Part shown: positions 6,501 to 60,894 of the stretch, piece after piece
How the letters are laid out: the number at the start of each line of letters is the position of its first letter
Position numbering within the stretch: position 1 is the stretch's first letter
Source of the DNA: Xiphias gladius
Lineage: Eukaryota > Chordata > Actinopteri > Istiophoriformes > Xiphiidae
Reading direction: 5' to 3'
DNA length: 64,000 bases
NCBI RefSeq assembly: GCF_016859285.1
Contig: NC_053414.1
Span: 8,692,517-8,756,516 of the forward strand
Position numbers and translations under genes: made by a program
Notes under the pieces: generated by a model
Database searches by the model: none
Told to the model about the DNA's origin: nothing
What the model saw: the letters and a program-made list of their open reading frames with translations, nothing else

Positions 6501-8106
6501 ATGAGCCGGTTGGCAGTTGGCTGTTCCAACATTAAACACCTGAACCTGATGCACACACACTATCATCATGAACACTCCCCTGTAGTGGGTGGGGAAACAC
6601 ACCTGTGTGCCAGCTTGATCAAATTCAGACACCTGCGCTCTCTCACTCTACCTGCCTGTGCTCTGTCAGACGGCTTAAACACACATCACATCTCTACAAA
6701 CAACAAATCTCCCTCTCCGCTGTTCTTGGGGCTAAAGAAAGCTCCACGTGTGGGGCTCCAGAATTACAAGCCTGATTCAGAGTCGTCTTTGTCGGGGGAC
6801 AGCACCTCAGGGCTTGCTCAGCTCTTAGCTGGCTGCCCCTTTTTAGAGACCCTAGAGCTCATTGGCCCAGGTTTCGTGTCTGCGCTGCCTCGACTTGAGC
6901 CCTGCTCTCGTGCCAGTGTGGAGCCCCGTGGTATGTGTGCGTGGGCTCGAGGAGTTGGCGATGCGCATTTAGCCGCGCTTGAGGCTTTGCCTAATTTATG
7001 TCGACTGACTCTGGCTGGGCTTCCTGGGGTCTTAAGGGGGACAGGGCTGGTCCAGCTGGCCAGGCATTGCAAAGACCTACAGGTTTTATCCCTTGCCAAC
7101 ATGGGGTCATTAAAAACCATGAATTACACCCCTGCCTTGCTGGACATGCTTAAACAGTGCTCACAGCTGCAGGAACTCAGGTTAGAAGTTGCCTTTGTGT
7201 ATCCTTCATTTACTTCAAGAATAAACAGTGACCATCAGTTAGATCCTACAGTTATGCCTATTACTATATATCCCTTCAGTTAATAGATTTTCCCTCTTTT
7301 CAATAGAAGCATGCATTATTAATTGATTCTAATATTTAATTTATTAATTGAACCACGTTTTTCTCATGTTTTTCTCTTTGGGATGGTAAGTAGATTGAGG
7401 AATATTAAATGCTTGGCTAACTTTGTAATAACATGAAGAATCCAACCATTATATCTGGGTAGCTTTTATTTGGTGGGTTTTCATATATATATATCTGTCT
7501 TTTAGTGGGATGCAATATTTTTTTTTTTTTTAAACGAAGAATTATATAATTCTTTTTTTTGTCATGAAAGGCCATGCCTTAAACTCTTCCAACACACACC
7601 TTTGCTTGTTTTTTTGACCTAGTTGAAAATGGTGTGTCTGTTTCCTAGGTTAGAGCAGCCCTACCTGAATGCAAACACGTCATTCTTTGAGGCGCTGTCC
7701 TCCTGCTCTCGTCTGCAACGTCTCTGCCTAATCTCACGCGGCGGGACCTTTGACCCATCAGCCACAGAGACCTTCATGGAGCGATGCCGCCACGTCGTCA
7801 TGTGCCACATGTTCATGGGCGGCACCTTGGTGGCCTGTCGCACACTGCAGAAAGCTCTGCTGGACAGGTCAGTGATTGTGCGTGTGTGTTCGGACATACT
7901 CTACACCTGACATTTAATTGTGAGACTAATCAGTTTTTCTCTCTGTTAGGTTTTCAGTTGAGCGCTCAGCTCTGAGTGTGGTCATCTATCCACTACAACA
8001 TGAAGACCTTCCTTCAGTCATCAGAGATATCCCACTAACGCTGCTGGATCGGATAACTTTGTTTCAGAGCCATGTGGCCCAACCACCACATTTATCACCG
8101 CTGTGA
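3535..8106 (+). CDS. fbxl18: F-box and leucine-rich repeat protein 18 (seven coding exons)
   Basis: Coding exons are 3535-3588, 4794-4991, 5225-5574, 5848-5983, 6102-7180, 7649-7867 and 7950-8106, with stop TGA at 8104-8106. Phases agree at every junction and give about 730 residues, near the human length as recalled. FBXL proteins are substrate adaptors of SCF (SKP1-CUL1-F-box) ubiquitin ligases. The F-box is in exon 2 (about residues 34-75, including LSDEILLCILRHVPVCDLLL). Leucine-rich repeats fill exons 3 to 6. Diagnostic matches to the recalled human protein are LSLNGCYWLSGSVMEHLARC, QTLLTPSYGVVPCC, LMVGQSSVPHYQ, LQLPRSWLDS and RDIPLTLLDRITLF near the C-terminus. The start ATG at 3535 was chosen because its 18 codons join exon 2 in frame. 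An in-frame ATG at 4815 is an alternative start. A poly(A) signal follows at 8527. Confidence 0.93.
3985..4290 (+). repeat. Degenerate copy of the 'gctgcaac' dispersed repeat (family A), in fbxl18 intron 1
   Basis: Core landmarks of the family are present: tttcccagagcccaag, a tgtctgaccaactgtccaaa block, and atatttgagaagct. The left end is replaced by a T-rich run (4022-4062). The same landmarks recur in at least ten other places in this window (see the other family A entries). Confidence 0.6.
5670..5815 (+). repeat. Short copy of the 'gtacagctgaggc' repeat (family B), in fbxl18 intron 3
   Basis: Shared blocks are aagtacagctgaggc, ggtatttggtcataaacc, ggatcaccaaag and gcatggctaaaaat. They occur in the same order as in the longer copies at 9190-9460 and 44085-44806. 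The middle is deleted. Confidence 0.6.
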
Positions 8107-14612: not shown

Positions 14613-16000
14613 ATGTTGACGTCCGTCGCCAGCTCGTGTGTGCGAAGCGGGAGGAAAATCTCGGTCCCCGTAGCTAAATTCCCCTTCTTGTCAACGGCTA
14701 GGAACTCGCCCAGAGGCCCGACGGGGGTACGAGATTTGTCCCAACAGCGGTCGCCCAGGCTCCTCACACCGACTCCCCGGCAGCTGCCAAGGGGACTAAC
14801 GTTCAGGTCTGTGTCCCTGTCAGCCGCTTCGCGGGGGGACGCGGACCCCCTGGCCGCGCCTTCGGTCCGAGATGACAGGGAGAACTTCGGCTCCCTTTCC
14901 GCGGACTTTTCCTCCAGGAGGTCGTTCAGGAAAAGCAACCCCGACATCCGGGATCTACGGCACCGAGAGGACGACGCCTTGGGGGAAGAAGAGGTGGAGG
15001 AAGACCCGGTGAAAGCTCGCAGGAGGCCCGGGAGGAGAAACACACCGTACTGGTACTTCTTACAGTGCAAGAAACTGATCAAAGACAACAAGGTCAGTTG
15101 TCGGCTGAACTGTTATGTCCGTCTTGCTTGCTTCTCGCGTTGATAAACATACTTTTGCCGCCTCACAGCTGCAGGAGGCTTTGGATTTGTTCGGCAGAGA
15201 CATGCTGCAGGGAGAGAGGCTGCAGCCGGAGGAGTACAACTACACTGTCCTGATAGGAGGCTGTGGTCGAGCTGGACAACTCAAAAAGGCCTTCAGACTC
15301 TACAATGATGTAGGAAGATTTCATTCATGTACTTTTATCATTGTTTATATATTCGCTTAAGCATTTTCATCATCATCGTCATTTCAGACTTTAAAGTGAT
15401 GAAAAACTGCTTAGTCAGTCTGATCATCAGCTAAAAAACAACAGTCCTCAATGGTATTTTTTAGATATCGGGTTACACAAGTTTTATACCAAGTCACCGA
15501 GTTAAAACTAAATCCAAGCTAAATTAAATAATTTTCAGTCAATGACTTAAGTAATAGATCAGTTATTAAAATCTGAAGCAGCTCATCACTGTCCCTTAAA
15601 TAATCAAATATTTGTTATGTAGTTACATTACATATTTGTTGTAAGTGTGAGGTACATTTTATTAATGTGATGGCTATGCTGTGCACACAATGACCTGTTT
15701 TTAGAATTTGCTACAATCATTTTTCAGTTACTAGATGTTCCCAACTAAGTTTAGTCATTTTAGTTACTACTAAAGTTGTGACTCTGACCAGTTCATTTTA
15801 AGTTCAGTTGTCTCAAATGTGTTTTCTTGTGTTTATTTCAGTTTCCAGTCATAGTTTTAGCTTTCGCTTTAATTTCCAAGTTGTACTTTTAGCCAAAAAT
15901 AATTTGCTTCACATCGTCAAATACATCTTTTTCATATGAAAATTTCTTGAGGGTTATACACAAACACGGGCCTCCTCAGATCTTGTTATAATGTGTGTAA

Positions 16001-16064
<64 letters not shown>

Positions 16065-19000
16065 GCGCGTCTTTTCCAGATGAAGAAGCGAGGTCTCGAT
16101 GCTATAGATGCTACCTACACCGCGCTGTTCAATGCCTGCGCTGAGTCACCTTCAAAACAAGCCGGTCTTCAGCAAGCGCTGAAGTTGGAGCAAGAACTCC
16201 GTCGAAAAAACTACCCCCTCAGCACCATCACATACCACGCTCTCCTCAAGACACACGCCATCACCAACCACCTTCAGGCCTGTATACACACGCTCAGGGT
16301 ACGACATTTGCGTGGGTGTACGGAAAGGAATCGGTCCATTGAAGTGTGTGAGATTTCTGTTTATACATGCGTTTGTGTGTGTTTGTAGGAGATGCTGCAG
16401 AATGGACATGTTGTAACTCAGGAGACGTTTCACTACCTGCTGATGGGCTGCTTGAAGGACAAAGAAACAGGCTTCAGACTGGCTTTACAGGTAGATAAAC
16501 GTTGACAGGAACCTACTAATGTGTATGAAATCTTCTAGAGCATGTCCATGTTAAGCTTGCTAAATTTAAAAATCAGTCTTTTGGTTCTGCAATTTATGAT
16601 TTTTTCTTTTTGCATTATTGATTTACCTGCAGATGATTTTCTAGATTACTCGATCAGTCATCTGGTCCATGAACTGTCAAAATATAATGAAAAAAACTGC
16701 CATCACACTTTCCCAGAGACCATATGCGTGTTTTCAAGTAGCTTGTTTTGTCTGAACAGCTAAGACTAAGAACACCTGCAAATGTTTATATTTGATAAGC
16801 TAGGAACAGTTTTTTTTTTTTGCATTTTTACTTAAAAAAATGACTTAAATGAATAACAGATTACTAAAATAATTGTCGATGAACTTTCTGTCGATCAACT
16901 AATCGATTAATCCAATAACTGCTTTTCTCAATCAAAAACAGAGCTCTCTAAAAACACTTTCCAGAGTGGATAAATCTTTAAAACTGAGAAAGTGGCATTT
17001 TAGTGTGTATAAGGAGAACATTAGCTTTTGCAAAACAATGACGTGGTGACCACACGTGATGCCAAGCCATGGTTGGGGGTGTGTTTGGCAGTTGGTTCTC
17101 TGCGATCACTCATTTTAAATGTTAATATAGGCGACTGCAGAGCACAGCTGTTGTCACTTACCTCTATTCATGTTTCAAATCAAATCACTATCTTGTACGT
17201 GTTCTGATATCTGACAGCAGAAACAGAAATATCCATGAGTGATGTTGGCTGCCATGCACAGTGTTGTTATGTGCCACCCGAAAAGTGGATGATGAAGAAG
17301 AGATTTAGCTGTTTTTCTCTTTCTGAGATATCAGAGTTGGCAAAGATCTGTTTTAAAAAAGAAAAACAAGGGTGGAAGAATCTGCTTTCACACGTAAACA
17401 GTGTTTTAAGAAGCAGACATCCCAGTGTGGACGTAGTCTAAATCTGTATCTGTTTCAGGTTTGGCGCCAGATGCTAAAGTCGGGGATTCTTCCAGACTCC
17501 AAGAACTATAACCTGCTCTTGAGAACTGCAAGGGATTGTGGGATTGGTGATCCTGCCCTGGCCACTGGCATTCTTCTTAGGCCTGAGTGCGGGGGCCAGA
17601 AGGAGACAGAACATGTGTCAAGTGTCAAGTCAGAGTCCAGATGCAAGGATGTAATAGACATTGACCTTCTGGAGAGGCAGTTGTTTATCCAACCAGATGC
17701 ACACAGAGACGGAGAGGAGCCCTTTAACAGGCAAGAATCAACCCACCTGATACCAGTAAGACAAAAAGAAAACACCGCCCTGCCTGTTGACTTAGTGAGT
17801 TCCACAGCCCCAAATCTGCTGGACCTTTTTGAAGGGAGGAAGGGTGCTGTGGTCTCCCTCGGCACTGTGGATGGATCATCTGATAGGCTCGCCCTGATCG
17901 GAGGAGCTAAGGGTTTTCTGGAGAAAATGGCAGCTAACGGACTCAGTCCAGACCTCAGAACTTTGACCCTGTTGTCCGATACGATGGAGCCGGGCTACCA
18001 GTCTCTGCAGATGCTGCTGAGGGTCGCGAAGCAGCATCGCGTGAAGCTCGATGTCGCGTTCTTTAACTCTGTGATTCGCAGAGCAGCCAGAGCTGGTGAC
18101 CTGGAGGGGGCAAAGGTGCACGCACGCACGCACGCACACATACAACGCTGGCCTTTCTATTTTCGAGAGGACACTCATTGACAATACATTCCCTAGCCCT
18201 TTACCTTAACCTCAACCATCATACCTAAATGTAACTAACCCCAAACTTAGCCTAAACCTAATTTTAACCTTAACCATAAAACCATGTCTTAACCCTCCAA
18301 CAGCCCTTTGAAGAGTTGAAGATGACCGGCCAAAATGTCCTCACAACGATGGTTTTCCACCAAAATTTTCCCACATAACCATAGAAGGACATGTACACGC
18401 GCTCTCTCTCATTCTTGCCCATTCTCAGTGAAACCACAATTACATCACTGAGCAATGTTTTTGGCATTAAAGGATCAGTTTACCCAAATTGCCAAAAAAA
18501 AAAAAAAATTCTCACCACCGTGTACCTTTTTCTCTTTATCACCACTTCTAGTGGCCAGTTTTCTTTTTGACAACATCTCTTTCCAGAACTATGCAGGCTT
18601 AAAGAGTTCGAAACTGAATAAAAAATAAGACATTATGATATGAATAAAAACAAACTATACGTCATATTGTATATTTCAAGCAACAGCCAATGAAATGTTT
18701 AATTATCAAATCAAACAACGACTGGGGAAAATGGCAATGTGAAATAAAAACAGACTTTGGAAAACCACTATTGTGAGCAGATGCAGCATTAATGAAATTA
18801 ATTAAAATTTTTGGGGTTATTACACAATATCAATGTATTTATTTTGTCCTTATTATATAACAATTTATTTCATAATGTATACTTCTTTATTTCAGTTTGA
18901 ACATTTGGGATCGTCATGTAGACTCAGTATGTGGATTACTCTGAATAATGCACAGACGTCGCCAAACAGTTTTTGTTGGAACTACTCTCTACTGAAGGAA

Positions 19001-22329: not shown

Positions 22330-23008
22330 TCCATCTAGGTTATTTGATTATTGTGAAATACAGGAATCAGTGGAACATTTTATATGTCAGGGTCAAAAAT
22401 ACTTAAGAAGTGATAGAGTAAAAATAAGTATTAAATCTTGTTTCAGGGAGTTATAACTGTCATTTACAGACTGATAATTACAATCTGTTTTTTAATATAT
22501 CTTTATGGGTTAATAATGATTGTGTCCATACTCCAGAATAGTGGTTGGCATTAAAAGGGAGAAATTTAGATAACACCTTTTTTGATCCTCAGGAGAAAAT
22601 TAGGCATTAAAGCAGCTTAAGAAGAAGGAGGCCACACACAGTAGGTGCAAAAGGGTAGAGCAAACACAAATAAAAACTATAAAAATGGGGGAAAACTGCC
22701 CATAAATCCAACTGGAATTGAATCTATATTCAGATATACAAAAAGTAAACAGCAGTGGAGAACAAACTGTACAACAAGTTGAAATAAAGCTATGTATATG
22801 TGCAAGAATGACAACCATCAGTGCAGTTCCTCTCATTACTGAGAGAGGTAACAAAGTGGAATATCATATTATATTATATTACGATATAAACTGAGAATTT
22901 GTATTTTTTCATTCATTTACCTTAAGCTCCAGTCCATCTTAGTGGGTGGCGGTAATACACTTATAAACTGGTTTGTCAGTCGCTAATAAAGATAACGAAG
23001 AAGAAAAC
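22330..23008 (+). mobile_element. 5'-truncated L1-like LINE fragment with gaagaag tail
   Basis: Positions 22362-22450 read in one frame as EIQESVEHFICQGQKY and on, resembling the C-terminal cysteine/histidine region of L1-like ORF2 proteins. Downstream frames are broken by stops. The 3' end carries the block agtgggtggcggtaatacac, then cagtcgctaataaagat and the tail aacgaagaagaaaac, which I recall as a common teleost LINE 3' end. It is sense to, and directly abuts, the first exon of the next gene. The region 21490-22330 before it holds the ptcd1 3' UTR and AT-rich DNA without other recognisable content. Confidence 0.5.
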
Positions 23009-23009
23009 T

Positions 23010-23088
23010 CGTCAGATCGGGTGCCATCAGATTTGAGAACCCCGGCGCGAAAAACAACATATTTATTATTGGTTACTCGACAACAAAG
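23010..23088 (+). promoter_or_regulatory. Probable promoter and noncoding first exon of the unnamed gene
   Basis: A short CpG-containing stretch (ccccggcgcgaaaaac) with an attggtt box lies right after the LINE tail and ends in a good donor (acaaag|gtaggatc at 23088). It can splice to the STPR exon at 24519, or skip it and join 25478, where an in-frame ATG lies at 25487. Confidence 0.45.
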
Positions 23089-23394
23089 GTAGGATCATTC
23101 TGCCACTCACGAAACTTAACAACAATTTAAACGTATTCTAATATGTTAACGATACTAAACCTTGTAGTAAAAAGTAAAACGTGAACACTTAGACACAAGC
23201 GGCGACTGTTGTTAGACGCATTTAACTTTCTGTTTCCTGCCTTGGAGGAAGCTAATAGCTAGCTTCTTTAAAACAAGCAATAAATAAATGTGATTTGGTT
23301 TGGGCTGGGTAGGAAAGTTAAGGCTACAGAATAACGCAGCCAGTTTTGTGACAAAGACTCGGTTCATCCTGATGACATGTTCTATATGTTTTTA

Positions 23395-23885
23395 TTGACA
23401 CGAACCTCTCGAATCTAAGTATAAATGGAGAAATCTCTGTCTGTCTGTCTGCCTTTCTGTCTGTCTGGATTTCCATTTTCTTAACAACCGCTCATCCGAT
23501 CGACATCAAACTTCGCGGGTGTATTGCCGTGCGAAGTTTTCTGGATGAGCGGTTCTCGAGAAAGCTCGAACCATCGCTGTTCTACATGTTACATGACGTG
23601 AGGAAAAAGGCGGAACTACACTACTAGGACCGTGCAGGAACCCGGACACTTTACAGCGCGCACACGCCAGGGTTTTAATGAAGGCGGAACTCAGCTGAGA
23701 CGGCACTGTCTACGCCGTCCCCCCTGACATTATCTGAGCTGAGCTGAGCGGAGCGGAGAAGTCGACCCCAGCGGTTACAAAGGAGACCCCTCAGAAAAAG
23801 CCGCAAGCTGGATCAACGGGGGCCTGGCAAACAACCCCTACCTACAGGCACATTTCAAACGGGCACTGCACTAGACTGTGTAAAA
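23395..23885 (+). mobile_element. Helitron-like element, copy A
   Basis: It starts with aatggagaaatctctgtctg, runs through a (tctg)n tract and the block aacaaccgctcatccgatcg, and ends aaacgggcactgcactag. The last 300 bases (23575-23885) are repeated at 25011-25295. The CTAG end fits the CTRR 3' terminus of Helitrons, but I did not find a clear terminal hairpin, so the class is tentative. It contains no STPR exon. Confidence 0.5.
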
Positions 23886-23989
23886 CCTACGAAACCACCC
23901 GACAGAGGGTTAATTGACATCACAATTGTGTCATGGAATGTGTCGCAGGAATTTGACATCATGGAATGTTGAACCCTGAGATCATAAAT

Positions 23990-25295
23990 GAGGAATCTCT
24001 GTCTGTCTGTCTGTTTTTCGATTTTCCCAACAACTGCTCATCCGATTGACTTCAGACTTTGCCGGTATATTGCTGAGGACCCAAGGAAGTGCAGTGTCAA
24101 CTGTGAAGTTTTGCTGAGGACCCAAGCAGGTGCACTGTCCACTGTGAAGTTTTTTTTTGGATGAGCGGTTGTAGGGAAAATAGAAAATACAGACATAAAA
24201 TAATCTATAAAAATCCCTACGAAACCATCCAACTGACAGTTGTGTCCGTGATTATGTCACAGAAATTTGACATCACCGAAATATGCACTGTGGGATGATA
24301 ATGAAAGACCATCTGACATAAACTACGACATCATCAGTAACATCATGAAATATTGCACTGAGAGATCATAAATTACGACCCAACGTTTGACTTACCTCAT
24401 GTAAGCAGTTTGAAATGTGATTATAACCAGCACTTCATCTTCCGTTGTGGAAAGTGGACGGTAGTTCACGGGGCATCAGGGTTTAACCACTGACTTTGAC
24501 ATCTAATCTTTCTTGCAGACCACATTTGCTGATTTCACCATGCCTAAAGATAGCCGTGCAAAGCGGGAGCGTATGCGTGAGGCAAAGCGCCGCGCACGTG
24601 CCGCTGAGTCAGATGAAGCACGAGATGCACGCCTAGCTCGGGATCGGGCAAGCCACAGACGTTCGCGAGATAAGGAGACGCTGGAAATGCGAGCGCAGCG
24701 TCTGGAACGTGACCGCCAATGTCACAAGCGCACACGAGATGAGGAGAAGCTGCAGATGCTAGCGCAGCGCCAGGAGCGTGACCTTCAAAGTCACAAACGC
24801 GTGCGAGAGGAGGAGACCTCTGAGCAGAAAGAGGTAAGTAACGCTAGGCGCCATCAGGAACTACACCCTGCACGACTGGAAAAGGCGCGTAATGACGCAT
24901 CCCCGCATGGTGCGATGATACTGTCTTCTTACAAGAGGAGCTTTATGGTGATTACAGGCAGATGCTCAGCAAGACCTAATACGACGCTTCAAAACTTCAG
25001 ACGTCGATTTTCTACACGTTACGTGACATGAAGAAAAAGGCAGAAGTACACTACGAGGGCGTTGCAGCACCCGGACAATTTACGGCGTGGACATGCCAGG
25101 GATTCTAAGAAAGGCAGAACTCAACTGATGCAGCACTTACACCGTTACCCAGACACTATCAGAGTGGAGCAGAGCAGCCCACTCCAGCAGTGACAAATGA
25201 CACCTGCTCTCACGAAAGCTCCACGCTGGAATAACATGGGCACAGCAACCAGCCCCTGCCTTACAGCCACGTTTTGAACGGGCACTGGACTAGTC
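23990..25295 (+). mobile_element. Helitron-like element, copy B, carrying the STPR exon
   Basis: It opens with the same aatgaggaatctctgtctg start and caactgctcatccgatt block as copy A. It contains the 24519-24833 STPR exon and ends in a 285-bp segment parallel to copy A (ggaacccggacac versus gcacccggacaat; aaacgggcactg versus gaacgggcactg, then gactag). A partial internal duplication (aggacccaag, about 24077 and 24118) is also present. Such STPR-bearing ORFs occur in fish Helitrons as I recall. The exact ends are uncertain. Confidence 0.5.
24519..24833 (+). CDS. STPR-repeat exon, probable first coding exon of the unnamed gene below
   Basis: ATG at 24540 opens 98 codons to a strong donor (gag|gtaagta); a strong acceptor (tctttcttgcag) precedes the exon. 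The protein is very basic and contains three full 23-residue repeats after residue 17, starting [30 protein letters not shown] and [15 protein letters not shown], and a partial fourth ([10 protein letters not shown]). This period and pattern is that of STPR domains, first described as a DNA-binding repeat in silkworm FMBP-1. It ends in phase 0 and so does the next acceptor at 25478: the join reads [15 protein letters not shown]. It could instead be only a transposon exon that is never spliced to the host gene. Confidence 0.6.
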
Positions 25296-28200
25296 CTCCC
25301 AAATCAGACATGCAAGCCTGCATAGCTTTCACTGAGCAACAAAACATAAGGGTCTGGTTTGTGAGTGACGAAGACCAGACTGACAACTTACAGAAGTACA
25401 CTTTGGTGATATTTTGACTATACTGGCTACATATGTGTGTTGATGATGGCCTTGTCTTTCCCTTTTTTTTGTGCTAGGCATTTCTGATGTGTACAATTGG
25501 GGACGATGGGGAAATCATCATCCTCAGTGATGATGATGATGAAGATGACATATCATGCAGTGATCCCTCAGTTCTCATTGTGGAGGTGGAGGATGTGAAG
25601 AAGAGTGGTAACAACTGTGTTTGCCTTACACATTTTGCTCTATGGGTCCGATTTGAAGGTTCTCAATATTCACCAGCTGCTCCTCCTCTGTGTTTCAGAT
25701 TTTGTGTTATCTCAAAGTGCCCTGGATGAAGACCTGGTCGTAACCTTCTCCCGCCGCGCCGAGGTGCTACCTCACGCACGCTACGACTGTCCCATTTATC
25801 CTTTCACGTGAGTCAGTTACCCCACATACTTGTGAAATATTGCCCTCCAGTAGAGCTGCTCACCCTTCGTCTCTTCTGTCCCGCTCAGGGCTACAGATTG
25901 TGAGATTGATGCCCCTGTGGCCAACAACCAGATCATTTGTGATCAGTGCTTCTGCTACATCTGCGACAAGCTGGCGTCGGCGGTATGTGTTGATGCCGGG
26001 GAAACCACTCGCTTTTCAGCAACTGTTGCTTTTTTTTCTTGTCAGTTTGGGTGATTTGTGTGAATCGTCCAGATCTGATAATTTTTTGAAATGGAGGGGG
26101 GGCAAGGACAGAGTCGGGGGAACCACGCCCTCTCACTTGTCAAAAAAAAAAAAAAACCCACAACCCCTGGCTTCTGTGCTTGGCACGTGCACTGCACCAG
26201 AGAGGAGTAAAAGAGTGACGGCTGAAGAGGGCCGGCTCTGGGAGGCCAGTTTTTGACTGACCGCGTGTCAGGAATCTTACAGTAGCGTTACGATAATCTT
26301 AACTCATTTATATGACAATATGTCAAGCTTGGGACTGTTGATTAGTAGTGCTGGGGGCAAGTCGTTTCACTTAAGTATCGCAATTAAATATGGATTCCTG
26401 AATCCATATTTAATTTAATATTTACACTGAGCTAGCAGTTAACAGTTAGTCCGGGAGTTAGCCTGTTAGCATCGGTGCCTGAACCGGAGAAGCTGTTAAG
26501 TTTGCTGATTTCCTGTCACAGTAAATAAATCCTCACGTTTAACGGCGCCACTGACTGGTAACAGCTTAACTTTCCGCTAACTGCTAACCGCTAACCGCTA
26601 AATGTTGTTGTCCGACTGTTGACTGGAAGCTTCAGGTGCACTGCAACTACATCAAGACTTCTGGCCCGAGACGAGCCGTCTGCTTTAGAATAAAAGCATC
26701 AGTGCTGCCGCTTTGAAGCATTCATTATAACAGTTCTTTATATGACTTTATTATAACAGTAAGTCATTTAACTAACAGGTAGATTAATTATGTATTGGCC
26801 TATGGACTACCGACCTCTTAAGTGATATTCCTAATGACAGATTTTTCGTTAGCATGGCTTTAAGACATGCTGCTGAAATAAAACTCAGAATGTCTGACGT
26901 GATGTGCATTGTTTTTGGAAATATTGTATAAGTTGTAGTGGTTGTGAAAGGTTGCCTAAGGTTCTTTTTTTTTTCATCAGTAAATGAATGGAGCAGAACT
27001 TGAAATCTTAACTCATAAGCCTTTTTAGTGGAACGTTTTCCCCTTGAGTTACAGACACTAGCACATGTTGCGATATATAGTGTCACTGTCATGGGCATAT
27101 GCTGCACCCTGTCATAATAGTGAGTTAACCTGTGAGTCTCGGCCATATCTCTTAATCTGAACATTTGAAGCTGCGCGCAGATGATGTTTTATTGTGCTGT
27201 GTTTAAATTTAACTGTCACATTTCTGTGTTATTTTGGAACATAAAAAGCATTTTTCTCCAGCTAACGTGTATCTGATGGAATTGAACTTACTGGTTGAGC
27301 GTGAGTGCAGGAATTGAATTTACTGCCCACAAAGAGAGCTTCAGTAGCGTGTGTGTAAAGCAGGTGCAGATAAAGAAAATTTCAGGTTTTGCTTTTTTAT
27401 TTTTTGGCAAGAAATCAATTATTCACAGCTCCATTAATGCAAATCGCTTCTGTTTTTCACTCAGTGTGTAATGTGGTGTCACAGCGGCGTGTGTCACTGC
27501 AACAGCCACAAAAGGAGCGACTTCTGGAACACCCTGAGAAACAGTGCACTGCTGGGAGGACTGAGGACTTTCAACCTCACTCTGTCTGAAATAGATGCTC
27601 ACCTCCGACATGCAGGTACTCGCTCTCATGCAAAAACTGTACGTGGACATCACGGTCACATTCACATTTGGGAAAACCTCAGACTGAACCACTTGTGGTT
27701 AAGCTGTTAATCACGCGCCATGTCACTGCCATTGAGTTTTTGTTTTCCTCTTGTCCAGAGATGATGCTGCAGAGCTTCAGACAAGAACTCTCTACACAGT
27801 TCTCAACCTTTCTGAAAGGAAAAACGTTACAGGAATATGGGCTGAACCTACCAAACCAGCAAGGCCTCATCTATGAGTGAGTTGCACAGCAGAGCTGTCC
27901 ATAATAATAAAGACAAAACGTCTATCCACCCTCAGATGATCTTACACCGTTTATATATCAGTGAAAGTTTATTTTAAATACAGGACAGTCGTTAGGATCC
28001 ATCCTTACCGATGCATAACTACCAAATACACATTCAGTAGTTGTGAGGGCCTCCATGTGACCAAAAGTATGTGGACAACTAACATCACACCCACTAATGA
28101 TTGCCGAACATCTCATTCTGAAACCATGCACCTTCATCTGCTGCTGTCACCGCCGCCGCTCTTGGGCAAAGGCTTTCTCCAACATTTTGAAACCTGGCTG

Positions 28201-29634
28201 CAGAGATTTAGTGTTGGTGAGGCTGGGCCATGATGTTGGGCAATGAGGTCGGCCTCCAGTTCATTGGATGGGGTTGAGGACAGTGCTCCCCGCAGGCCAG
28301 TCAAGTTTTTCCGCTCCAAGTTCAAGGTGATTCTTCCTGCACCTCACTTGGTGCACAGGGGCATTGTGATGTTCAAACAGTAAAGGCTCTTCCTCAAACT
28401 GCTGCCACAAAGTAAGAAGGACTTTATTGTCTAAAATATTATTTTATGCCCCATCTTTAGGATTTCCCTTAAAGGTGCTCCATGGAGTTTTCTTCTAAGT
28501 TAACAAAGGTTATGTTTACATTCTGTGTTTCACCAAAAAATACTGTCCTAGAGGTATAACAAATGTGCTGACTGTATTTCCTTCTTCATAATATATTTAC
28601 AAAGATTTGTTTAAACATGTATTTGTACACACATTGTGTATTGTTTACATTCATGTTTACTTGCTAGCAATCTTCTTCCTCACTTTTTTTTTTTTTGGTG
28701 CAGTTCTACCTTTCTTTGCCCGTTAGCACCAACAACTGTTGATCAGGAAAAAGGCGTGTAACCATGGCAGCATGTGAAATGTGCCTTCTGGTTGCTTGTG
28801 TGTCCTTGCACGATGCAAATGCAGTGGGGAGCCAATAGTAAAAGCATTGCTCTGTACTGGTGTTACTATTGTTGCTAAATTTCCTAGGAGAGGATGAAAG
28901 GACAGCATTGTAAGTGGGGAATAACGGGTGTTGTAGAGCGCCTCCTCTGTTGAGGGATGGTTTCTCTACTTTAACATAGACAGCCTCCTTCACTCCTCTT
29001 TGAAACCCTCTGTACTCCTTATCCAAAATATGTAGGTTGTTGTTCTTGAAGGAGTGCCGGTTTCCTTCAGGTGTAGGTAAACTGCAGAGGAGTCTGTGTT
29101 GCGTTTGTGTCGGTGTTGAGCCACGTGTTTCTTCAATGGTTGTTTAGTTTCTCCAGCATTTAAGTCTGTGCATGCCTCACCGCACTGGGCTGCACACACT
29201 AGATTGCTTTTCTTGTGTTTGGGTGTGCGGTCTTTCAGATGGACCGGTTTCTGAGCTCGTTACGGGGGTTTTAAAAGCACAGGGAGTCAGCCGTGGATGG
29301 GTGGTGAAGCGTCGTCAAGACCTACACCCAAGTCCAGGTGGCGTTGATTCGACTCTTCATGGACAGGATTGTACACACACCTTGGCCATATAGTTTTTCA
29401 GTCTGGCTCAAAGCCTCAACGTATATCTCGATCTGTACTTCTGACCGTATTAACACATAAAAAGTGACGGCAGTGACATTTCAACATTTAAATTTTCTTT
29501 ATTCGCAGTTACACCCCGGTGTACGAGTGTGTGTCATCGTTCCTGAACAAAGCAGATAAACAGGACGGCAGAGCTGCTGCCATCATGAGACTGGGAGCTG
29601 CTGAAGACTTTATTAGACATTATTCCGTCTCAGG

Positions 29635-29681
<47 letters not shown>

Positions 29682-30337
29682 TACATATATGAAGCATTTT
29701 CTGTGTATCAATTTTCTTTGATTAATATGATTCTCTGCAGAGATTTCATCCTACAGTCTCCCATGGCCAATGCAGATGAGGCTAAGGTGGTGTTACTGCA
29801 GAGGTAAACACATGCTCATACACAAACACAACGCCGTCATGTGTTATATCTGTAAGTGATTCACCGGGATATTTACCTTCTCCTTCCCTGTGTCCTTTGC
29901 GTGTTTGCGTTTTTTTTTTTTTTCAGGGTTGTAGCATCAGTGCAGAGTCAAATGGTGATGGCTGATTTTACTCCAGAGTTCACCCACAAACTGCAGGATT
30001 TTTACAAGAGATTCTGTTTTCCAGCTGAGCTGAAGAGCATGAGGAACAGGTAGGTGTGTAGGTGTGTGTGTGTTTTTTCATTTTTATCCCTAAGGTTACA
30101 CATTAAAGCCTTCTTGTGTTTTATTATAACTTCACGTTGTTGCGCTGCAGCCTGTGTGTTCGTCCCTGGGATGACGTCCTGCTGGTGTCTGTGCTGAAGG
30201 GGCAGAATGTGTCGGGCGTCCGCAAAGACAAAGGCAAGAAGGACGTCCTGATTGAACAGATTTCTATAGTTCTACTGAGAACAGAACTTCTGCAGCGACA
30301 GCACAGGTACAAAATGGATTTACATATACTAATACTG

Positions 30338-30388
<51 letters not shown>

Positions 30389-33300
30389 TTGGCTTTTAAA
30401 ACCAAACTTGGCTGTGTCATGGCTGCAGGTACAGAGAGTTGTGTCGCTACCTACGAGTCGTCCAGACTGATGATTCCAAACGGTGAGTGTTTATAACCAA
30501 ATAACCACAAATACTTCACATGCTCTCCTGTTTTTTTGTGGAAAGAGTTAAATGTGTGCTCAATTTCACCTTTATTTACTAAAGATGGTCTTTAGAGAGG
30601 GAATTGTTTTAAAATTGACTGAGCATTGTTCAGACAAAATTTTGTATATTCAAAATTTCGTAAAGTGCGTTAGAGCTGCAACAATTAATTAATTAGTTAA
30701 TCAACAAAGTTAATCAGCAACAATTTTGATAATTAATTGTTGCTGTAACTAACAATTATTTTTATTATCGATGTAATCTTCATTATTTTTTGGATTAATT
30801 GATTAGGTGTATGACAGAAAAAAGTGAAAAATGAACGTAATAATTTCCCATAGCCCAAGGATATGTTTTCAAGTAGCTTTTTGAATTTTGACCCATACTC
30901 CAAAACCCAGAGATATTCAGTTTATTAGAGCATAACAGGTTTTTAAATTAAAGAAATTGCAAAAATTTCCAGCTTCTCAAATCTGAATAGTTTCTTGTTT
31001 CTTAGTTTTTATTATGATAGTGAACTGAATATCTTTGGGATTTTGAACTGTTGGTTGGACAAAAATGAGACATTTTAGGAAATTACAATGGGCTCTGGGA
31101 ACTTCTGTTGGAAATTTCTTGCTATTTTTTTGACATTTTATAGACCAAATGTTTAATCAGTTAATCAAGAAAACAATCAGTAGATTAATCAATAATTAAA
31201 ACGATCACTAGTTGCAGCCCTAATCTGCATATTTTCGGGCTCTGTACTGTTGGTCAATCAACATGATCAACCTGTGCTCTAGGAAATTGGGATGGGCACG
31301 ATTATTCGTATCAAGAAAATAGGTAAGTAAACATAGGTTCAGAAATCAGAATATTTAAACTCTTAATATCTTTTGAAAATAAAATCTCATGCATAGATTT
31401 ATATGTTTAGACATGATTAGTAATGTCATGTTGCTGACTTGCTGCATCGGGTTTACGTCTCTGGCAGCTTCCAGCCAGTTCAAGACCTCATCCCCTTCTT
31501 CACGTGCATGGAGGGAGACTTCACGTCAGCTTGCCACAGTTTGTTCCCCTCACTCAACGCCCCCGCCTCCCGCTTCACTCCGCTCCTCTTCCTCTTTTAT
31601 CTCTGCGTCTTTGAAACAGCGACAGCACCCAAGCTGACGGTCAGTCAGCCGGCACAGCTCTGCTGCTCTGATGCGACATGGGGGCCAATTAAAGGTCAGG
31701 CAAAGATATTCTGTATTATAACATCAACCATTTTCGCTTAGAAAAATCTTGAAAAAAAGGACAACAAAAAAAAATTCTTATAAGCAGTCAAAATCCCTCC
31801 TCTCTGCAGATGCTGTTCCACTGAAGCGCGCTGAGCTGGTGAAGTTCGCTCTCAGGGTTCAGAGATGCTGCTCCGCCGTCTTCACTGATGCAAGTCTAAA
31901 GCACTCATCGCTGTTCATTTTGCTTTTTAGGAATCTCATTCTCCTTCTTAATGCAAATCTCAGTTTTAACACGAAATCGACAGAACATCAGCTTTTTATT
32001 ACTTTAATATATTTCAAATATATATTTGGACACTTGGGTTTTAAAAGAGTTAGACACAGATAGGGAACACCGTTCTTTCTTGGGTGTCGTCTTTGACATG
32101 TGATTAACAGTCATTACTCTAAGTAGCGTTGAGACTTAATGCGACTTTCTGCCTTGGGTGAGGTGATTAATGTACCGTCTTGGCATCTAATCCTCCGTGA
32201 GGAACATTTGAGTAAACTAAATTGGGATTTTTATTTTGTTTTTTAGCAGTTATTTTAGGTTTTAGGTCATTTAAAATACTTCCCTAGTATGTTTTTTTTT
32301 TTAAGGTTTTCTCCATGTTTATGAAGCAGTGAATAGCCTTGCACATACATAGTAGGCCCAGGACGTGACCGAAGCTACCCAGACTTCTCAAGTCATCAGT
32401 CACTGCTCCTCTAGGGGTCAATTCGGAGTCTGGTGAAGCTGTGTTTATTTTATAAGCTCCCAGCTGCTGGAATGGCCTCCTTGAAGACTTGAGATGTGCA
32501 CAGACCTGCACGTTTTTGAAACATTTTTCTTTTTTGTTCTTTTTTTTGAATGACTTAATATTTTCTTTCAGGCATTTAATACATTTCGTGTGCAGTGTTT
32601 CGTATGCTTGTTGTTACAGTGGTAGTGAATGGCCTTATTTCATTTTTATTTACATTGAAACTGCATTGAGTTTCCCCACTGTGTATGAGCTGTGTTTATA
32701 TAAATAAAGTTTTCCTTTGTTTAGCATTTTCCAATGTGTGACTGTGTGTCTGATGTTTTCCTAATCCAGTCTCAGTGTTGGACCCGTATACTCACAGTTG
32801 TAAACACACCTTGTGGTTCACTCACCGCTCTACCAGCACCGAACCCACAGTTCCTACATGTAAGTATTTATAGTTTATTTAAAACTCATCTATTTAATTT
32901 TTTTGTAATTTTCCATTTATTTCTAGTAGTTGTTGTTTTCACTCTGTATTTTCTGTCCTCCGTGTCTGGACGTCAGGAAGCAAAGGATGTTGTGAATTCG
33001 ATACTGCTCAAGCCGCACGGGTCAAACATACAGATCCCACGATTCTTTCAGGAGGTAAGTATGTCTGGATGCGCACATCTGCATTGAAGCGAGTGATAAT
33101 AGACCGTTGATAAGTGTTTGTTTGTGTTTACAGGTGTACCCAGATCAGGCCTTGTTACTGTTGGCAACAGGGGCTTTAGGTTTAAGAATCCTCAGTGCTG
33201 CTCTGAGTCCAGCGCTCCCAGTGCTCAACACTTATAAGGTATTTTCCTCTTCCCATCCATTTTAGATGTCACATCCCGTTTGTGGACATTAAATCCAAAC

Positions 33301-38475: not shown

Positions 38476-41400
38476 CTATGTTGTATATGTATTTCTGTGG
38501 AGCTGCACTGACCTGTAAGAGTATCGTAAAAGCGGTGGTCCACGTCCTGCGTGGCGCTGTTTGATGAGATCAGACAGGAAATTCATCACTCTCAAATCAT
38601 CCTGACTGCTGCAGAATCCTCGTGTGTACAGGAAATCCTCTCCCTCTGTACCGTCCTGCCCTGCAGCAGCGTTTGGATGCTGCAAAGCAGGATTAAACGT
38701 GTACAGCAGAGCCTGGTTGGCCAGCTCAGTCAGGCAGCTCTCCAGGTGCAGCAGGTAGGTGATGCCTCGGCTGATGCCAGTGTGAGGTTCAGCCAGTCTG
38801 CTGACGAGAGAGCCGGAGTACGACGGACAGCGCAGAGTCCTCTGGTCCAGGTCCAGCAGGGCCAGATATCGACTATAGCGTGTCAGAGAGTGAATAATGC
38901 TGGAGGAAGAGCTTGAGGTTGTTCTGGTCAAGAGGAAAAAGAGATGTTATTTTAAGGTTGTGCCTATTTGTGTATTAAAAGCAAAATTTAAAGCTTCATT
39001 AGTTGAATTTGTTTTTTTTCTTTTGGCCAACTGGCAGCTGTGTATGAAAATTTTTGTACTGTTGTCATTCAGAGCCTGAAAAATTCCTGACTTGCTTCAG
39101 TGTTTTTGGCTTCTTTTAGATGAAACAAATCTTACAATGTGTTCTTTCACATCTAAAGATCTTTAGTGCAAAATTCACCATAACACATAGCTATTGTCTT
39201 AGCTACCCACACTGAATTTGTCACATCTACTTTATTCAAAATGGCAAAAAGTCTGGAACAGTCTCAAATTTAATTCAGTTATAAAGATGATTACAAAGTC
39301 ATCAGACTGCAAAAATAAAGACAAGACATTAAATTATAGTTGAAATTGTGTGAGCACTGACTGCTGTAACCCAACTGATCAAGCAAAGTCACTTGCTCCT
39401 GTTTTATCAACTTTTCAGTAGGACGGACGGACGGATGGAGTGTGTAGACGCACTGATGGGTCTTGAAATAGTAATGCAGAAAGGTTTAGAAGGGTAAATG
39501 ATTGGCCAAATAATGATTCTGAGAATCATTCCACCCACAAAGAGCCTCTGAAGAACCCTGTTTTTGTGGCGCTGCGAACACAGCATTATGAGCATCACTG
39601 GGCAAGATGGCAGCAGGGAGAGCAGAATTCCTTTGGAACACCTGTCTGGTGACTTTTGACCCACTCTGGCACATGTACAGTAATGTTTATCCAGCGCGCT
39701 GCCCCTGTTGAATTAACCAGGAATAAAACTGACACTTGTGGGGAATGAATTGCCCTAATGTAGATATGTGCTCTACGCTCACCAGCTAATTGCTAACTTT
39801 ATTGTTTGGTGCTGGGCAGGTTGCGTATAGTGGGTTTACCGGAGATTCTGAGCTGCTAACAACGGCCTGCTGCAGATCAGCGCTGAGCTTATTGGCCGGA
39901 AAGCTACAACAATGAACTAAAAAGGAGCTGAGGGGACCTGCAGAGACGGGTGATAATTCTCTGTGGATTTGTCACTACAAGTGACACCTGTAACATCACA
40001 AAGTCACTTGATCAATTGTTAATATGAAAGATATTGATTTGAATGTTTTTGAACTGATACTGTAAATGCAAGCAAATATTTCATTTAGTGCTGTATCTTA
40101 CATTGAGTCTTGGTGAGGGGTCTATTAATGACCATTGTTGCTCCTCTTAGCCGACGCAGTTTTCCCGTGTTTGGCGCACAGTACAGTATGTTATCGCTTG
40201 CTACCAGCAAGGCATAAGATGTGCCAGAATTTCAAGCAGCAACTACACAAATCTCAATTATAAAGGCAGCTTCACAGCAAGGCTCAAATTAGCAAAAATC
40301 ACACCACCATACCCAACATTATCAGCGTCACACAACTGGTATTAACTATCTGGCTATTTTATTGTAGTCTCTGTGTTATTCTGTCCAAGCCCCGTAGATA
40401 CACCTCTGTTAAGAACAGTTAACAAAAGGGCCTTACCAGTCAAAAAAAAATATACAAAGAAAATAAAAACAACAGAGAAAGGATGGCGGGACAACTACAC
40501 ATAAAAATAGGGATTTTGGAATTAAAACGAGGATAGGCAGGTAATCGTCATTTGGCTGTGTGTCATGGCGTACCTGTGTATTCCTATCAGTCTCCAGGTG
40601 AGCAGGTCGGTCAGCTGAAGTGCTGTGGACAGGCACGGCATCACAGCGTTTCCATCGGGACCGGGATCAGGCAGGAAGAGACTCAGAGCGTCCACCAGCT
40701 TCCTGACCAAAGGTTCGTCAGCGCCGATGACAACCAGCGGCCGGCCGCTCAGGAGGCAAAACACAGCATGCTGGGAGAATGAGTTCTGTTTGAGGAACCT
40801 GAGGGCTCTGAGTCCAGCCTTCCTTCTCCTCCTCTTATCTAAACGCGTGCAGCTGTGGATGTTTTGGGTGGGAGAAGGGGGGTCCGATGAGCAGGTGACG
40901 CTGATGCAGTCAGACGCCTCTTCAACACTCAGCAGCCTGAGAGGAGCGCAGGGCGGAGACCAACGGCCGAGCTCCGCCAGCGCGACGGGAGGGGAAAGGT
41001 TCACGTGGAGGTCAGGCGCCAAGTACGCCGTCTGATGGACTTCAGACCACTTCGGCATCAACTCCACTGCTTGTTCAACTGTGAAGTAAAAACTGTTTTG
41101 TTACATCTTTTTAACATGACATTGAGACTGTAACTTTCCACAGTAATTCATAAAAAGATCAATCTGACCACAAGATGATTAACAAGAAAGTAAAGAAGAA
41201 GTTTGCTACACAAAATTATATTTTTTCAGATTTTTCTCAAATCTTTGCTTTTTCTTCTGAAACACTGCGGAGTTTAATGTGAAAATGAAACAATCTGAGA
41301 GCTGAACGTTACTCTTTGGCTGAACTGTTGACTAACTCACTGACATACACATCGTTAAAGGACCAGGACGAAATCTGTATTGCTCATCCTGGATCCAAGG

Positions 41401-44400
41401 TTCAAGAATCGGTTGGAGCCTCCTTTCCGGCACCCTGGTACAAGCTTTCCCAGTGAGGCTGAGCAGTGTGCCACCCCAATAACTGGAGCACGTCCCTGGC
41501 TCCCCTTTTTAAAAATGAGAAGCACCGCCACAGAGCTGCTGCTCCCTCGTGTCGAAAGGAGCAGCTTGAAGTTGTTTGGGTCTGATCAGGATGCCCCCCA
41601 GGTGGCCTCCTTTGAAGGTTTTCTGTACACATCCAACTGGTAACAGACCCCAGGGCAGACCCACGAACACGCTAGAGAGATTCTGTATCTCATGTGGCTT
41701 GGGAACACCTCGTGATCCCCCAAAAACGTTTAATCAATTTTACCTGAATTAAATTTTAGACGTTTTTTTTTTTTGCCAATTTGAGGTCAAAGTTACAAAC
41801 TCAGTCTAGCTACATGTTAAGGTGAATTTTGCCTTCAGGAGCTTCAGCTAAGAGAGAGCACATTGTGAGATTTGTTTCAAATAAAAGAAATCAAAAACAC
41901 TGAAGCCAGTCAGGGGTTTGAAGGCTCTGAATGAGAACAGTACAAATAAAACGACAGTTACTTAGTCACCTTGCAACTATTTATATCTCTGAATTTGTTA
42001 ACTGAGATGCAAAATGTTATTAAACGTGAAGTCCCATTTGGATAGGATTTATTTCTCAAGGGAAGGTGCAGTGATACATTTATGAGTAAGATTTCTCTCC
42101 TGCCCCCTCTACCCTTTGACTATATATTTTATATTACATATTTTATATTATATTGTCCAAAATTACCCACTGTTTTTCTTGCATGTAGTAGCTGCCCCAT
42201 AATTTAAATCCTGTCAGACACCTCGTAATCTAAAGTGTAATTTAAAGTGTAATTTAAAGTGCACCATTGCACTGTTAATCGAGGGGGTTTTCCTGTGGAA
42301 CCTATTCTACGGATGACTTACCTTTTTTGGCATTATAACTGTGCCTCAGTTCTGAGCACATAATGGGACCTTTTGAAAACAATGCATGTAAACTTGATAA
42401 CAGAGCGGGACATTTGAGACGGGGTAAATGAGTAAAAGTGAGAGGTCATTATAGTGCACTTACGTGAATAATAGCAAATGTGAAAATAAATTCATTGAGC
42501 ACGAAATACACTTTTGTTTGTTCAAATTAATTTATTCTTTAGATGATAAAATACATCCACAAAATATAATATAATCTGTGCTTGCAAAAACCTGTTTCAA
42601 ATTGGTCCATTGTGCGATCAGAATTGGGACGCAAATATAATCGCATTCTTCCTGTGATTTGGAAATGATGAAAATAACTTTCACAACAGCTGGTGTCGAG
42701 TAAGAATTTTCTGAGATGCAGAGGAATAATTTTATTATCCACCTCACTCGGAAACTAAGACTAAATCCAAGCTAAGACGGGTACATTTGAAAAACACATC
42801 TTGTTGGACAACTTTTAAAACACTGGCCTCACATGTTAGTGTGGAGATATCCACTGAAATGATCTGTCAGTGTGGATATACGTTGTTTTCACACATAAAA
42901 GACCTAAAATGTGTTTAATAGGGGTTTAGAAAATCAGTATAATAGCAGATGTAGTTATTACCTTGCAGTAGTTTGGATGTCTTCTCAGGATAGTTCTCTT
43001 CATGGCCTTGACTCCTCTTCAAACTCTCGACGACCGGTTCCTCTTTGAGCATGACGCCGCCACTGACAGTTGTTTGCTTTAAAGCCTCTTCTTTATCAAC
43101 ACAGCTGTCATCTCTCTCAACAGGCAGTTCATTTTCCTTTTCATTTTCTAAAGTAGCAGCGTTCAATGTTTTCTCCTCCTTAGGGACACTGTCGGATTTA
43201 CACTCTGTCAGTGTTCCCTCCTCATTGTCAAGGCCATTGCTCACAGCTTGGTACTCCGCTTCTTCCTCCGTGATGGCGGTGAGGTCGTCAGGAAAGATGG
43301 AGTCGGTGGTGCTCAGGACCTCGATGCTGTCCTCGCTGTTGGCTCGCGTGGCGTACGCTCGCACACGTCTGACGCCTGCTTCTACTGCTGCTCGCCTGAC
43401 AGAGGTGTCCATCGGCATAACTGGAGTTTCTGCTGAAGAGAGTAAACTGTCAGCTGGTCCTGTTGTAGGAGAGGAATGTTCGAGGGCATATTCTGTGATC
43501 GGCTGCAGCTATATTGATTTTTTTTTAGTTAATTAATGTCATCTATAGAATCTGAAAATAGGGAAAACTGATCATCACAATTTCCCAGAGCGTAAGGAGA
43601 CGTCTTCAGTTGTTGTTTTGTACGACCGACAGTCCAAAACCAAAAGATTTACAAAATTCATGATGACAAACAACAAAGAAATGCCAAAATGATCACATTT
43701 GAGAAGCTGGAACCACAGAGTCTTATGCATTTTTGCTTGATAAATGACAAACAATTCATCAGTTATCATAACTGTAGTTGGCTTCTTAGTTGGCCAACGA
43801 TTAATCGACTAATTGTGTCACCATTTCACCGTAGTTAGATAACATTAAAAGCTTTCGGAGTTTAAGCTTAAACACTGAAAGTACAAGCTCTAAAGGTTAA
43901 TTTTTACTCTTTCTGTTAATCCCTGATTGTTACCTGTGTGTATAGATGAAAGAAGATACTGCCATTTAGGGCTGCAACTAATGACTATTTTCACTAATAA
44001 ATTTGTTGTTGTTTTTTTTCCCCCAATTAATCAACTATTTTGTCTGTAAAATGTCAGAAAACAGCTAAACAAGAGACTTCAGCCATGTTAGCAGGTCAAT
44101 GAGGCTGTACTTGAGTTAAATGCTAATTTCAGCATGCTAACATTCTCACAATGAAAGCTAGCGTGTTGATGTTTATAAGGTATAATGTTGACCATGTTCA
44201 CTTTGTTCGTTTAGCATGTTAGCATGCTAACATCTGCTAAATAGCCCTACACACAAAGTACAGCTGAGGCTGATGGGAGTGTCACTAGTTTTGTGGGTAT
44301 TTGGTCGTAAACCAAAATATTGGGAATTTTGACCAGATGATGGCGCTAGATGAAAAGTCAGATGAACTACAGAGAACTAAACTACTGAACTAAAAAGTTA

Positions 44401-54329: not shown

Positions 54330-59612
<5,283 letters not shown>

Positions 59613-60894
59613 TGCTTCCTTTTTTGCGGTTAGCCTTGGGAAGAGAGAATGCATAAATTGGGGGAAGCAGAAAGTGACACAAGACATGACAGTCGGGTAG
59701 AGGGAAATGAACTCTACTTGCAGAATACTTTATCCTAGAAATCATGGTAGAAAACTGCAGTTCTGCATGACTGTTATGAAGGAACTAGCATAATATGGTA
59801 TTTTCATTCCAATTAAAATTCAATTAAAAAAAAATAATAATACCGACTACAATTTTTCTAGCAGCATCATATTTAATATGTACAGACAGGTGACAAACTA
59901 GAGGGTTAGGGTGTCATTGAATGGTTTGATTAGTGTGAAAATGATGTGAATTATTTGTTATGGCCTTCACTTTCACAAGCTCCAAACCCAACTGAACACC
60001 TACGTACAGATTTTGGAGCGATATGTTATGCAGCAGTCCACTTGCAGAAACTATAACATTGACCACTGAAGCTTTTCAGAATTCCCTTGATAGCCGAACA
60101 CCTTACAGGGACATTTTACTTAGCTTTTTCCTTTAATTTTTTCCCCCCATCTGTATGTCTGTAGTTGTCATTTGCACCAGTGGGAAGCCACAGAGGATTA
60201 GTCAAGATAACTAAACATGTTTTAATCTTCCTTACAACACCATCTTTTTCAGTTAAAGAACCGCAGAGTTTGTCAGAAATTACTTGGATGTTAAACTGCA
60301 TTAATTAAACAAACATGGTTATGACTTGTTACTGAATTATTGGGAAACCAAACAGCTTTGTTTTTAATATGGGAGCGTCAGGCCTTTCCTGGAAACAGAT
60401 TGAATGCTTTTAAGTAGCTTGTAAGTGTAGTTTCAAAACAGTCCTGAGGAGGATTTTTCTTTCATGGATTAAAAAACGCTATTTAATTGTTAAGCCTCTT
60501 GAGGCAATTTAAGATTTGTAATATTGGGTGATATAACTGAACTTGACTCAATAATGAGTACAATCTTCCTATCATTCATGACTTTGTTGACAGCTTTAGT
60601 TTTGGGAAACTTCCCACTCTGCTGCAGTCTCTCAATGGCATTAAACACAGTGAATTTGGGGTTATATTTTAAGCCTTTAACAACAATGATAAATATTGTT
60701 TTTAAAAACAAGAAGCTCACAGGATGAATAGAAATGCGTTCCAGTTATAAATAGAGGGTTGGATACCATGATGTTGGCTTGTTTCTCTTGACTGCCTCTG
60801 TGTCCAAAAAAGAAAACTGTTCATGTTGAAAGCATTGAGTGTGAAGAGGTCTCTTTCACAGCAGATATTCCGATGTCATGGCGGGAAAGTTACA

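Follow-up and report, generated by a model that had tools for sequence, protein, structure and literature searches.

Introduction

The canonical Helitron Helraiser (Helibat1) has 5'-TC and CTAG-3' ends and an AT target, and its N-terminal 489 residues are needed for single-strand DNA binding (PMC4778049). Exonization of transposons, Helitrons included, is already known (PMC4778049, PMC3789558). In Helitron exon traps, such as the HelibatN3 NUBPL-promoter chimeras (PMC4778049) and the Helitron-derived exons of silkworm (PMC3789558), a Helitron within a gene or close to it provides the splice donor and the 5' sequence that become joined to a host exon further downstream, and in F-box A2 a part of a transposon protein, the Tc1/Mariner helix-turn-helix, is joined to a host domain (PMC12062965). 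Here we describe a candidate exon with STPR-type repeats that lies between Helitron sequences in the first intron of a gene for a SUMO-interacting-type protein of Xiphias gladius. It was analyzed within a stretch of 64,000 nt of NC_053414.1 (the window); coordinates are positions in this window, and features lie on its + strand unless a strand is given.

The locus resembles a canonical Helitron in its A|TC 5' end and CTAG|T 3' end (a 3' hairpin is predicted for some copies and not for others) and in having a decayed relative elsewhere in the genome, L059, with Rep and PIF1 segments and a region N-terminal to Rep. It differs in that the window copy has neither Rep nor helicase and in that its N-terminal region bears STPR-type repeats. 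As in the exon traps, a Helitron would contribute both donor and 5' sequence; here, however, the exon itself would consist of RepHel coding sequence and would bring in a DNA-binding-type domain, where the exon traps bring in a captured promoter or a noncoding exon. The F-box A2 fusion differs in turn, as the source in the window is a rolling-circle element and the join is a candidate read from genomic sequence.

A RepHel-derived DNA-binding segment serving as an exon would be an unusual instance of transposon exonization. If the exon is used, then rolling-circle transposase coding sequence, and not a captured gene piece or promoter, would have turned into an in-frame domain of a vertebrate gene. 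In addition, the locus appears to connect STPR repeats, which are familiar from FMBP-1 and ZNF821, with the N-terminal region of RepHel from a Helitron; a literature search pairing Helitron with STPR surfaced no paper on that pairing, a result confined to that search.

Results

A candidate exon that would join the host frame in phase

The candidate exon (24519-24833), which we read as an N-terminal RepHel coding fragment with STPR-type units, translates into 105 residues without a stop codon and is contained in a stop-to-stop open frame of 174 codons (24507-25031) that holds the STPR units and extends beyond the proposed donor. Its first ATG lies at 24540, within TTCACCATGC and with A at position -3, leaving 98 codons up to the donor (24540-24833; isoelectric point 10.5). 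This segment is predicted to form one long helix (AlphaFold with single-sequence input; predicted local distance difference test score 94.9, predicted template modeling score 0.51), as is expected for so charged a repeat. The exon ends in phase 0, and the host exon beginning at 25478 opens with codons for AFL, followed by the native ATG at 25487. An earlier reading of this DNA from its letters alone (the sequence-only reading) had proposed precisely this open exon and its phase-0 join through three open codons, and translation confirms both.

The splice signals of the candidate exon are of exon grade by consensus scoring and match those of real exons in the window. Its donor at 24833 (GAG|GTAAGT) ranks 2nd among the 3888 GT dinucleotides of the + strand and its acceptor at 24519 ranks 43rd among the 3936 AG dinucleotides, as expected from the strong acceptor and near-perfect donor claimed earlier. 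For comparison, the donor at 23088 (AAG|GTAGGA), at the end of the proposed first exon, ranks 27th of 3888, and the acceptor of host exon 2 at 25478 ranks 22nd of 3936. Acceptor-donor pairs spaced 50-400 nt apart that reach the summed score of the candidate exon number six on the + strand and one on the - strand; the six include the candidate exon itself, and three of them use the acceptor of the host exon at 29927-30049. As anatomy, judged by consensus splice scoring only, a splice-ready, in-phase optional exon is thus established.

We propose that the first intron of the host gene retains an internally deleted Helitron copy (composite 23414-25293) and that a start codon and open frame survived in the fragment. 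With an acceptor upstream of this start codon, and a GTAAGT within former coding sequence that may serve as a donor, the fragment would amount to a ready-made optional coding exon. Its inclusion (23088^24519, 24833^25478) would let translation begin at 24540 and place 101 (98 + 3) basic, probably helical residues before the native Met of the host, whereas skipping would leave the host protein to begin at its usual ATG. The region 22880-23088 contains no ATG; hence, if transcription starts there, the first AUG would be that at 24540 with the exon and that at 25487 without it.

Use of the exon in some mRNA, probably as a minor or alternative isoform, is a realistic prospect that we rate just short of even. 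The added segment may bind DNA. We are doubtful of the fullest version of these events, in which a SUMO-interacting-type nuclear protein would have gained the STPR DNA-binding arm of a rolling-circle RepHel as an alternative N-terminus. Were that version true, the host protein might recruit SUMO-linked factors to extrachromosomal DNA or to the DNA of transposons, and the N-terminal DNA-binding domain of this Helitron lineage would itself include STPR repeats.

STPR-type repeats in the candidate exon

From residue 24 onward, the candidate exon encodes three consecutive 23-residue units (69 residues), followed by a partial unit 4 that is cut by the proposed donor at 24833. Identities between pairs of units are 8/23, 12/23, and 15/23. 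In the register of FMBP-1, Glu1, Glu4, Arg9, and Arg12 are retained in units 1 and 2, while Gln stands in place of Glu4 in unit 3 and Ser in place of Arg9 in the continuing unit 4; this register, and the Glu4-Arg9 pair as a criterion for STPR, follow PMC4821344. The exon shares tandem, Arg-rich units of 23 residues, with the characteristic positions kept in the first two, with the STPR proteins (FMBP-1 of silkworm, ZNF821; PF21107). It differs from them in having just three full units before the donor, in the substitutions at Gln4 and Ser9, and in being unlisted by Pfam.

The three units were compared with the 23-residue consensus from the four units of a ZNF821-like gene of the same genome (L003); the identity that they show was matched by none of 20000 shuffles, whatever the register. 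A 23-position hidden Markov model made from the same gene gave the exon 55.1 bits, as opposed to at most 41.2 bits in 2000 shuffles. Unit identities, shuffles, and model together bear out the three 23-residue units of the sequence-only reading. As a correction to that reading, the repeat does not end at the donor: unit 4 and the Helitron coding sequence continue beyond 24833.

A DNA search of the genome with the STPR segment gave one match, the segment itself, so the sharing of the exon by hundreds of copies that the earlier reading had named as contrary evidence did not appear; this comparison covers the genomic part of that point. The search was a loose first look that skipped very common words, with copy counts as lower bounds, and the single match is for this reason not proof of rarity. 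Searching the genome at the protein level with the exon returned four matches, namely, itself, the ZNF821-like gene (E value 0.11), and two unrelated frames (E values 3.8 and 7.6). The candidate exon had no match among PDB sequences and no relative in viral contigs.

The gene used as a control here, L003 (1267-2328, minus strand; region C1:18707344-18707529), contains four STPR units. We take it to be ZNF821-like, and apart from the exon itself it alone gave a credible STPR match when the genome was searched at the protein level.

The repeat frame runs into sequence homologous to a Helitron RepHel

The profile PF14214 (Helitron-like N-terminal region) matched eight places in the genome, seven of them above the cut-off and six with stops. 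The decayed relative L059 (C18:8814000-8823900, minus strand) has a 5' stretch that is 84% identical to window 24030-24112, and carries, in this order on one strand, the same-family 5' sequence, a linker ahead of a CxxC motif, a PF14214 match, and a PIF1 helicase segment (E value 3.6e-32). Window 24782-24977 is homologous to this RepHel N-terminal linker (L059 3821-3616, minus), with 70% identity over 210 alignment columns, and in the window the same linker sits between 5' and 3' blocks of the same family.

The alignment spans the donor at 24833 without a break, the window coding sequence past the donor being aligned with EQQEDRQVCDTMHHQEMHRVRLGKAR. This indicates that the post-donor stretch is transposon coding sequence and not an intron of a Helitron gene. 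The donor is thus an internal site of what was once RepHel coding sequence, and splicing there would amount to exonization via a cryptic site. The STPR units are in one frame with the linker, which places them in the N-terminal part of RepHel, in agreement with the N-terminal requirement of Helraiser for single-strand DNA binding. From these comparisons, the STPR block most likely corresponds to the N-terminal portion of the RepHel protein of the Helitron, and its origin from RepHel coding sequence is well supported. We are fairly confident of this origin taken together with the exon anatomy, a confidence that covers these two points only.

The sequence-only reading had called for a search of Helitron coding regions for the STPR segment. 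Among eight RepHel regions that were searched, the linker match came from L059, in which STPR units 1-3 were unmatched, and two other regions matched at chance level. Its broader claim of capture from transposon to host holds up as to the Helitron source, given the L059 frame across the donor, and as to the in-phase join, while use by the host stays a candidate.

The same alignment bears on the reverse course, by which the STPR exon would be of cellular origin, taken up by the Helitron either from a ZNF821-type gene or from the host gene itself, as its first coding exon. Capture of gene fragments by Helitrons has been described (PMC4778049), and an STPR gene is present in the genome (L003). 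However, the frame runs directly into sequence homologous to the L059 RepHel linker, and this match across the donor speaks strongly against capture from a host; the best cellular STPR match is also weak (48% identity over query residues 9-69, at the E value of 0.11 given above). We regard the reverse course as very improbable.

Past the donor, the window frame is out of register with L059, and frameshifting differences between the two start only there (52 aligned bases before the donor, 144 after). This register has a bearing on a further reading, that of an independent small gene with its own promoter inside the Helitron, ending within the element and not joined to the host. Such a gene could start at the ATG at 24540, which has A at -3, and its frame would reach 25031. 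Its post-donor frame would, however, be out of register with the L059 coding sequence, and there is no sign of a promoter of its own, though no promoter search was made; the chance that this reading is correct seems slight.

Helitron ends and copies around the exon

Helitron sequence flanks the candidate exon within the composite. The upstream copy, E1 (23414-23874), is a complete-looking nonautonomous Helitron that runs from A|TCTAAGTATAAATGG... to ...GGGCACTGCACTAG|A. Its TC end at 23414 adjoins an A, its 5' end is common to other loci, and its layout equals that of L036 991-1517. The copy around the exon, E2, repeats the Helitron 5' terminal sequence at 23984-24112 (TC end not intact, best other copy 86%) and has a Helitron terminal block (24991-25293) that ends ...GGGCACTGGACTAG|T and may form a small hairpin at a distance of 10 nt from its end. 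Queries of the genome with these two pieces gave 450 first-look candidates for the 129 bases of the former and 100 for the latter, of which 40 were scored in each case. Blocks 23574-23874 and 25004-25293 are 73% alike and both terminate in CTAG; together with the genome copies, this similarity verifies that copies of one Helitron-like sequence lie on both sides of the exon, as had been noted before.

The 17-base 3' motif AACGGGCACTGNACTAG occurs at 27 exact places in the genome, against none for the reversed control. Outside the window, T follows CTAG in 20 of 25 reads, which correspond to 19/24 distinct sites, three in one C14 tandem array; within it, E2 ends CTAG|T at 25293, and the base after the CTAG of E1 (23874) is A. 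An A|TC 5' start was seen by eye in 13 of the 16 displayed loci with a shift of 0-2 bases allowed, or in 14 of 16 when L035 (shifted by 17) is included, and is absent in L012 and L033. Four 3' ends were folded: a hairpin was found in E2 (-5.1 kcal/mol as DNA, z -1.7, with 16 of 200 shuffles equally good) and in one relative (z -2.6), and none in E1 (z -0.2) or in another relative (z 1.0).

Judged by its A|TC and CTAG|T ends, the family is a canonical Helitron rather than a Helentron. The Helentron/Helitron2 assignment, first suggested by a CTG-rich microsatellite near the 5' end, is ruled out by the same ends. Helentrons are recognized by subterminal inverted repeats and a TT/T-rich target (PMC4067079); here, one inverted pair (23470-23497 / 24159-24186, 86%) is positioned away from the two ends of the element.

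Several further observations concern the family and the composite. Segment 23875-23983 is repeated in diverged form at 24216-24378 (direct repeats D3, D4, and D8), an internal duplication within the composite. At C14:26498883-26503167 (L022-L025), same-family Helitron ends recur every 1.4-1.5 kb with near-identical downstream flank, forming a tandem array, and at C940:43313-72994, on a contig of 77 kb, four Helitron 5' ends spaced by about 10 kb suggest a larger tandem repeat. Among viral contigs, the 5' motif was not found and four stretches have the 3' end motif; an STPR protein search of those four gave no match.

Possible constraint on the exon frame

The E2 blocks depart from the family consensus at 25 of 208 sites in the 3' block and 14 of 129 sites in the 5' piece (about 11-12%), values near the median departures of the other copies compared (36 and 61). 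For divergences of 12%, 9%, and 6%, a neutral simulation left the 98-codon frame open in 0.4-3.9%, 1.6-8.3%, and 6-18% of cases, respectively. An open frame at that age is nonetheless weak evidence, because the decayed L059 also keeps 170 open codons.

The exon holds 30 CG dinucleotides against 47 TG+CA, and the other parts of E2 hold 27 against 142 (Fisher p 1.5e-4), in a comparison of regions that differ in base composition; of 21 columns with a putative ancestral CpG, the E2 flanks keep 7. Set against the 144 bases that follow the donor (8 to 21), the exon does not differ significantly (p 0.36), so CpG retention was discarded as evidence of selection specific to the exon. The CpG index of the exon is 0.39, compared with 0.41 for the STPR DNA of the ZNF821-like gene and 0.09 for L059 coding DNA. 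Overall, support for constraint on the exon frame is weak to moderate.

These results bear on whether the exon has become a domesticated domain, that is, whether it is selected and conserved in a host isoform and gives the SUMO-interacting, Cys/His-type protein a DNA-binding N-terminus. In keeping with domestication, the 98-codon frame is intact in spite of the divergence of the E2 blocks, the CpG index is like that of the ZNF821-like STPR DNA and above that of L059, and frameshifting differences from L059 occur only past the donor. Yet the latter comparison covers just the 52 and 144 aligned bases mentioned above, the post-donor DNA is not significantly poorer in CpG, unit 3 lacks the Glu of the Glu4-Arg9 pair, and the donor truncates unit 4. 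Domestication is on balance unlikely, and we likewise think it improbable that the candidate exon has a selected function.

A weightier alternative to use by the host is that the exon is an inert remnant, a decayed intronic RepHel fragment never spliced into host mRNA, whose frame, donor, and phase would be coding leftovers combined with chance. A fit of phase arises by chance in 1/3 of cases, and the open frame may have been inherited from transposon coding sequence. The modeled intactness of 0.4-18% at divergences of 0.06-0.12 is not negligible for a frame picked as open, L059 holds its 170 open codons with host use not known, and CpG retention is unchanged at the donor. Pulling the other way, the flanking parts of E2 are more CpG-decayed than the exon, and both splice signals rank among the best of the window, which makes total avoidance by the splicing machinery less likely. 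We consider an inert remnant a serious possibility, while stopping short of calling it probable. If the exon is not used, the locus would be a clean example of a decayed transposon that leaves a splice-ready open frame beside a gene.

Like the CpG comparison at the donor, the following points weigh against the account proposed here of a RepHel-derived optional exon. The frame was selected for study since it was open, which weakens the open-frame probability, and an unselected frame of 170 codons likewise persists in the decayed L059. L059 aligns only to 24782-24833 of the exon and to sequence beyond it, so that units 1-3 are tied to RepHel through frame continuity rather than through a homologous copy. 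Between the same-family 5' stretch of L059 and its linker lie about 1.7 kb of unrelated sequence, which may be an insertion or an intron; alternatively, the two may have inserted independently. When the L059 linker protein was searched against the genome, it matched itself and two chance-level places, the window not among them, and the protein search of the home genome found no other STPR-bearing Helitron. A Pfam scan lists no family for the exon or the longer frame (PF21107 included, E value up to 10), so the exon is not a called STPR member by that test, under which the ZNF821-like control itself matched PF21107 at 22.8 bits, below the curated 27. The splice matrices behind the rankings are approximate and not fitted to this species. 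Lastly, the TC end of the inner 5' piece of E2 is not intact and E1 is followed by A.

The host gene

The proposed noncoding first exon, or promoter-side region, extends over 22900-23088, with a CpG observed/expected ratio of 1.16 over 22900-23100. Host exon 2 (25478-25607) has a SUMO-interacting-type motif by eye after the native start. Further exons, with boundaries drawn by eye, lie at 25699-25807, 25889-25982, 27465-27615, 27759-27876, 29509-29634, 29741-29803, 29927-30049, 30151-30306, 30429-30482, 31468-31694, and 31810 to about 31888. Exon 2 and these eleven later exons join into one continuous frame of 476 residues, whose product has an acidic SUMO-interacting-type start and a Cys/His-rich stretch.

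When the first 240 host residues were searched against the 691 Mb genome, only this locus was matched, in six pieces; hence, that part showed neither a paralogue nor a spliced retrocopy. The host protein has no family in Pfam, one chance match among PDB sequences (phmmer, E value 1.7), and one weak, unrelated match in NCBIfam (E value 0.018). SIMC1, which combines SUMO-interacting motifs with an Nse5-like domain (PMC9708086), is our guess for the host gene, a guess to which the PDB comparison lent no support.

The Cys/His-rich module of the host (DCEID...) is encoded in window 25889-27615 and has no Pfam family listed. A suspected resemblance to a plant RIN13-like Cys/His module was set aside, as a literature search gave nothing useful on it. 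Judged from its frames, the gene content of the window is suggestive of a teleost. Apart from the host gene, frames at 4698-8000, 15000-18200, 40500-48000, and 59400-59730 look like putative FBXL18, PTCD1, SMCR8, and MIEF2 genes, respectively.

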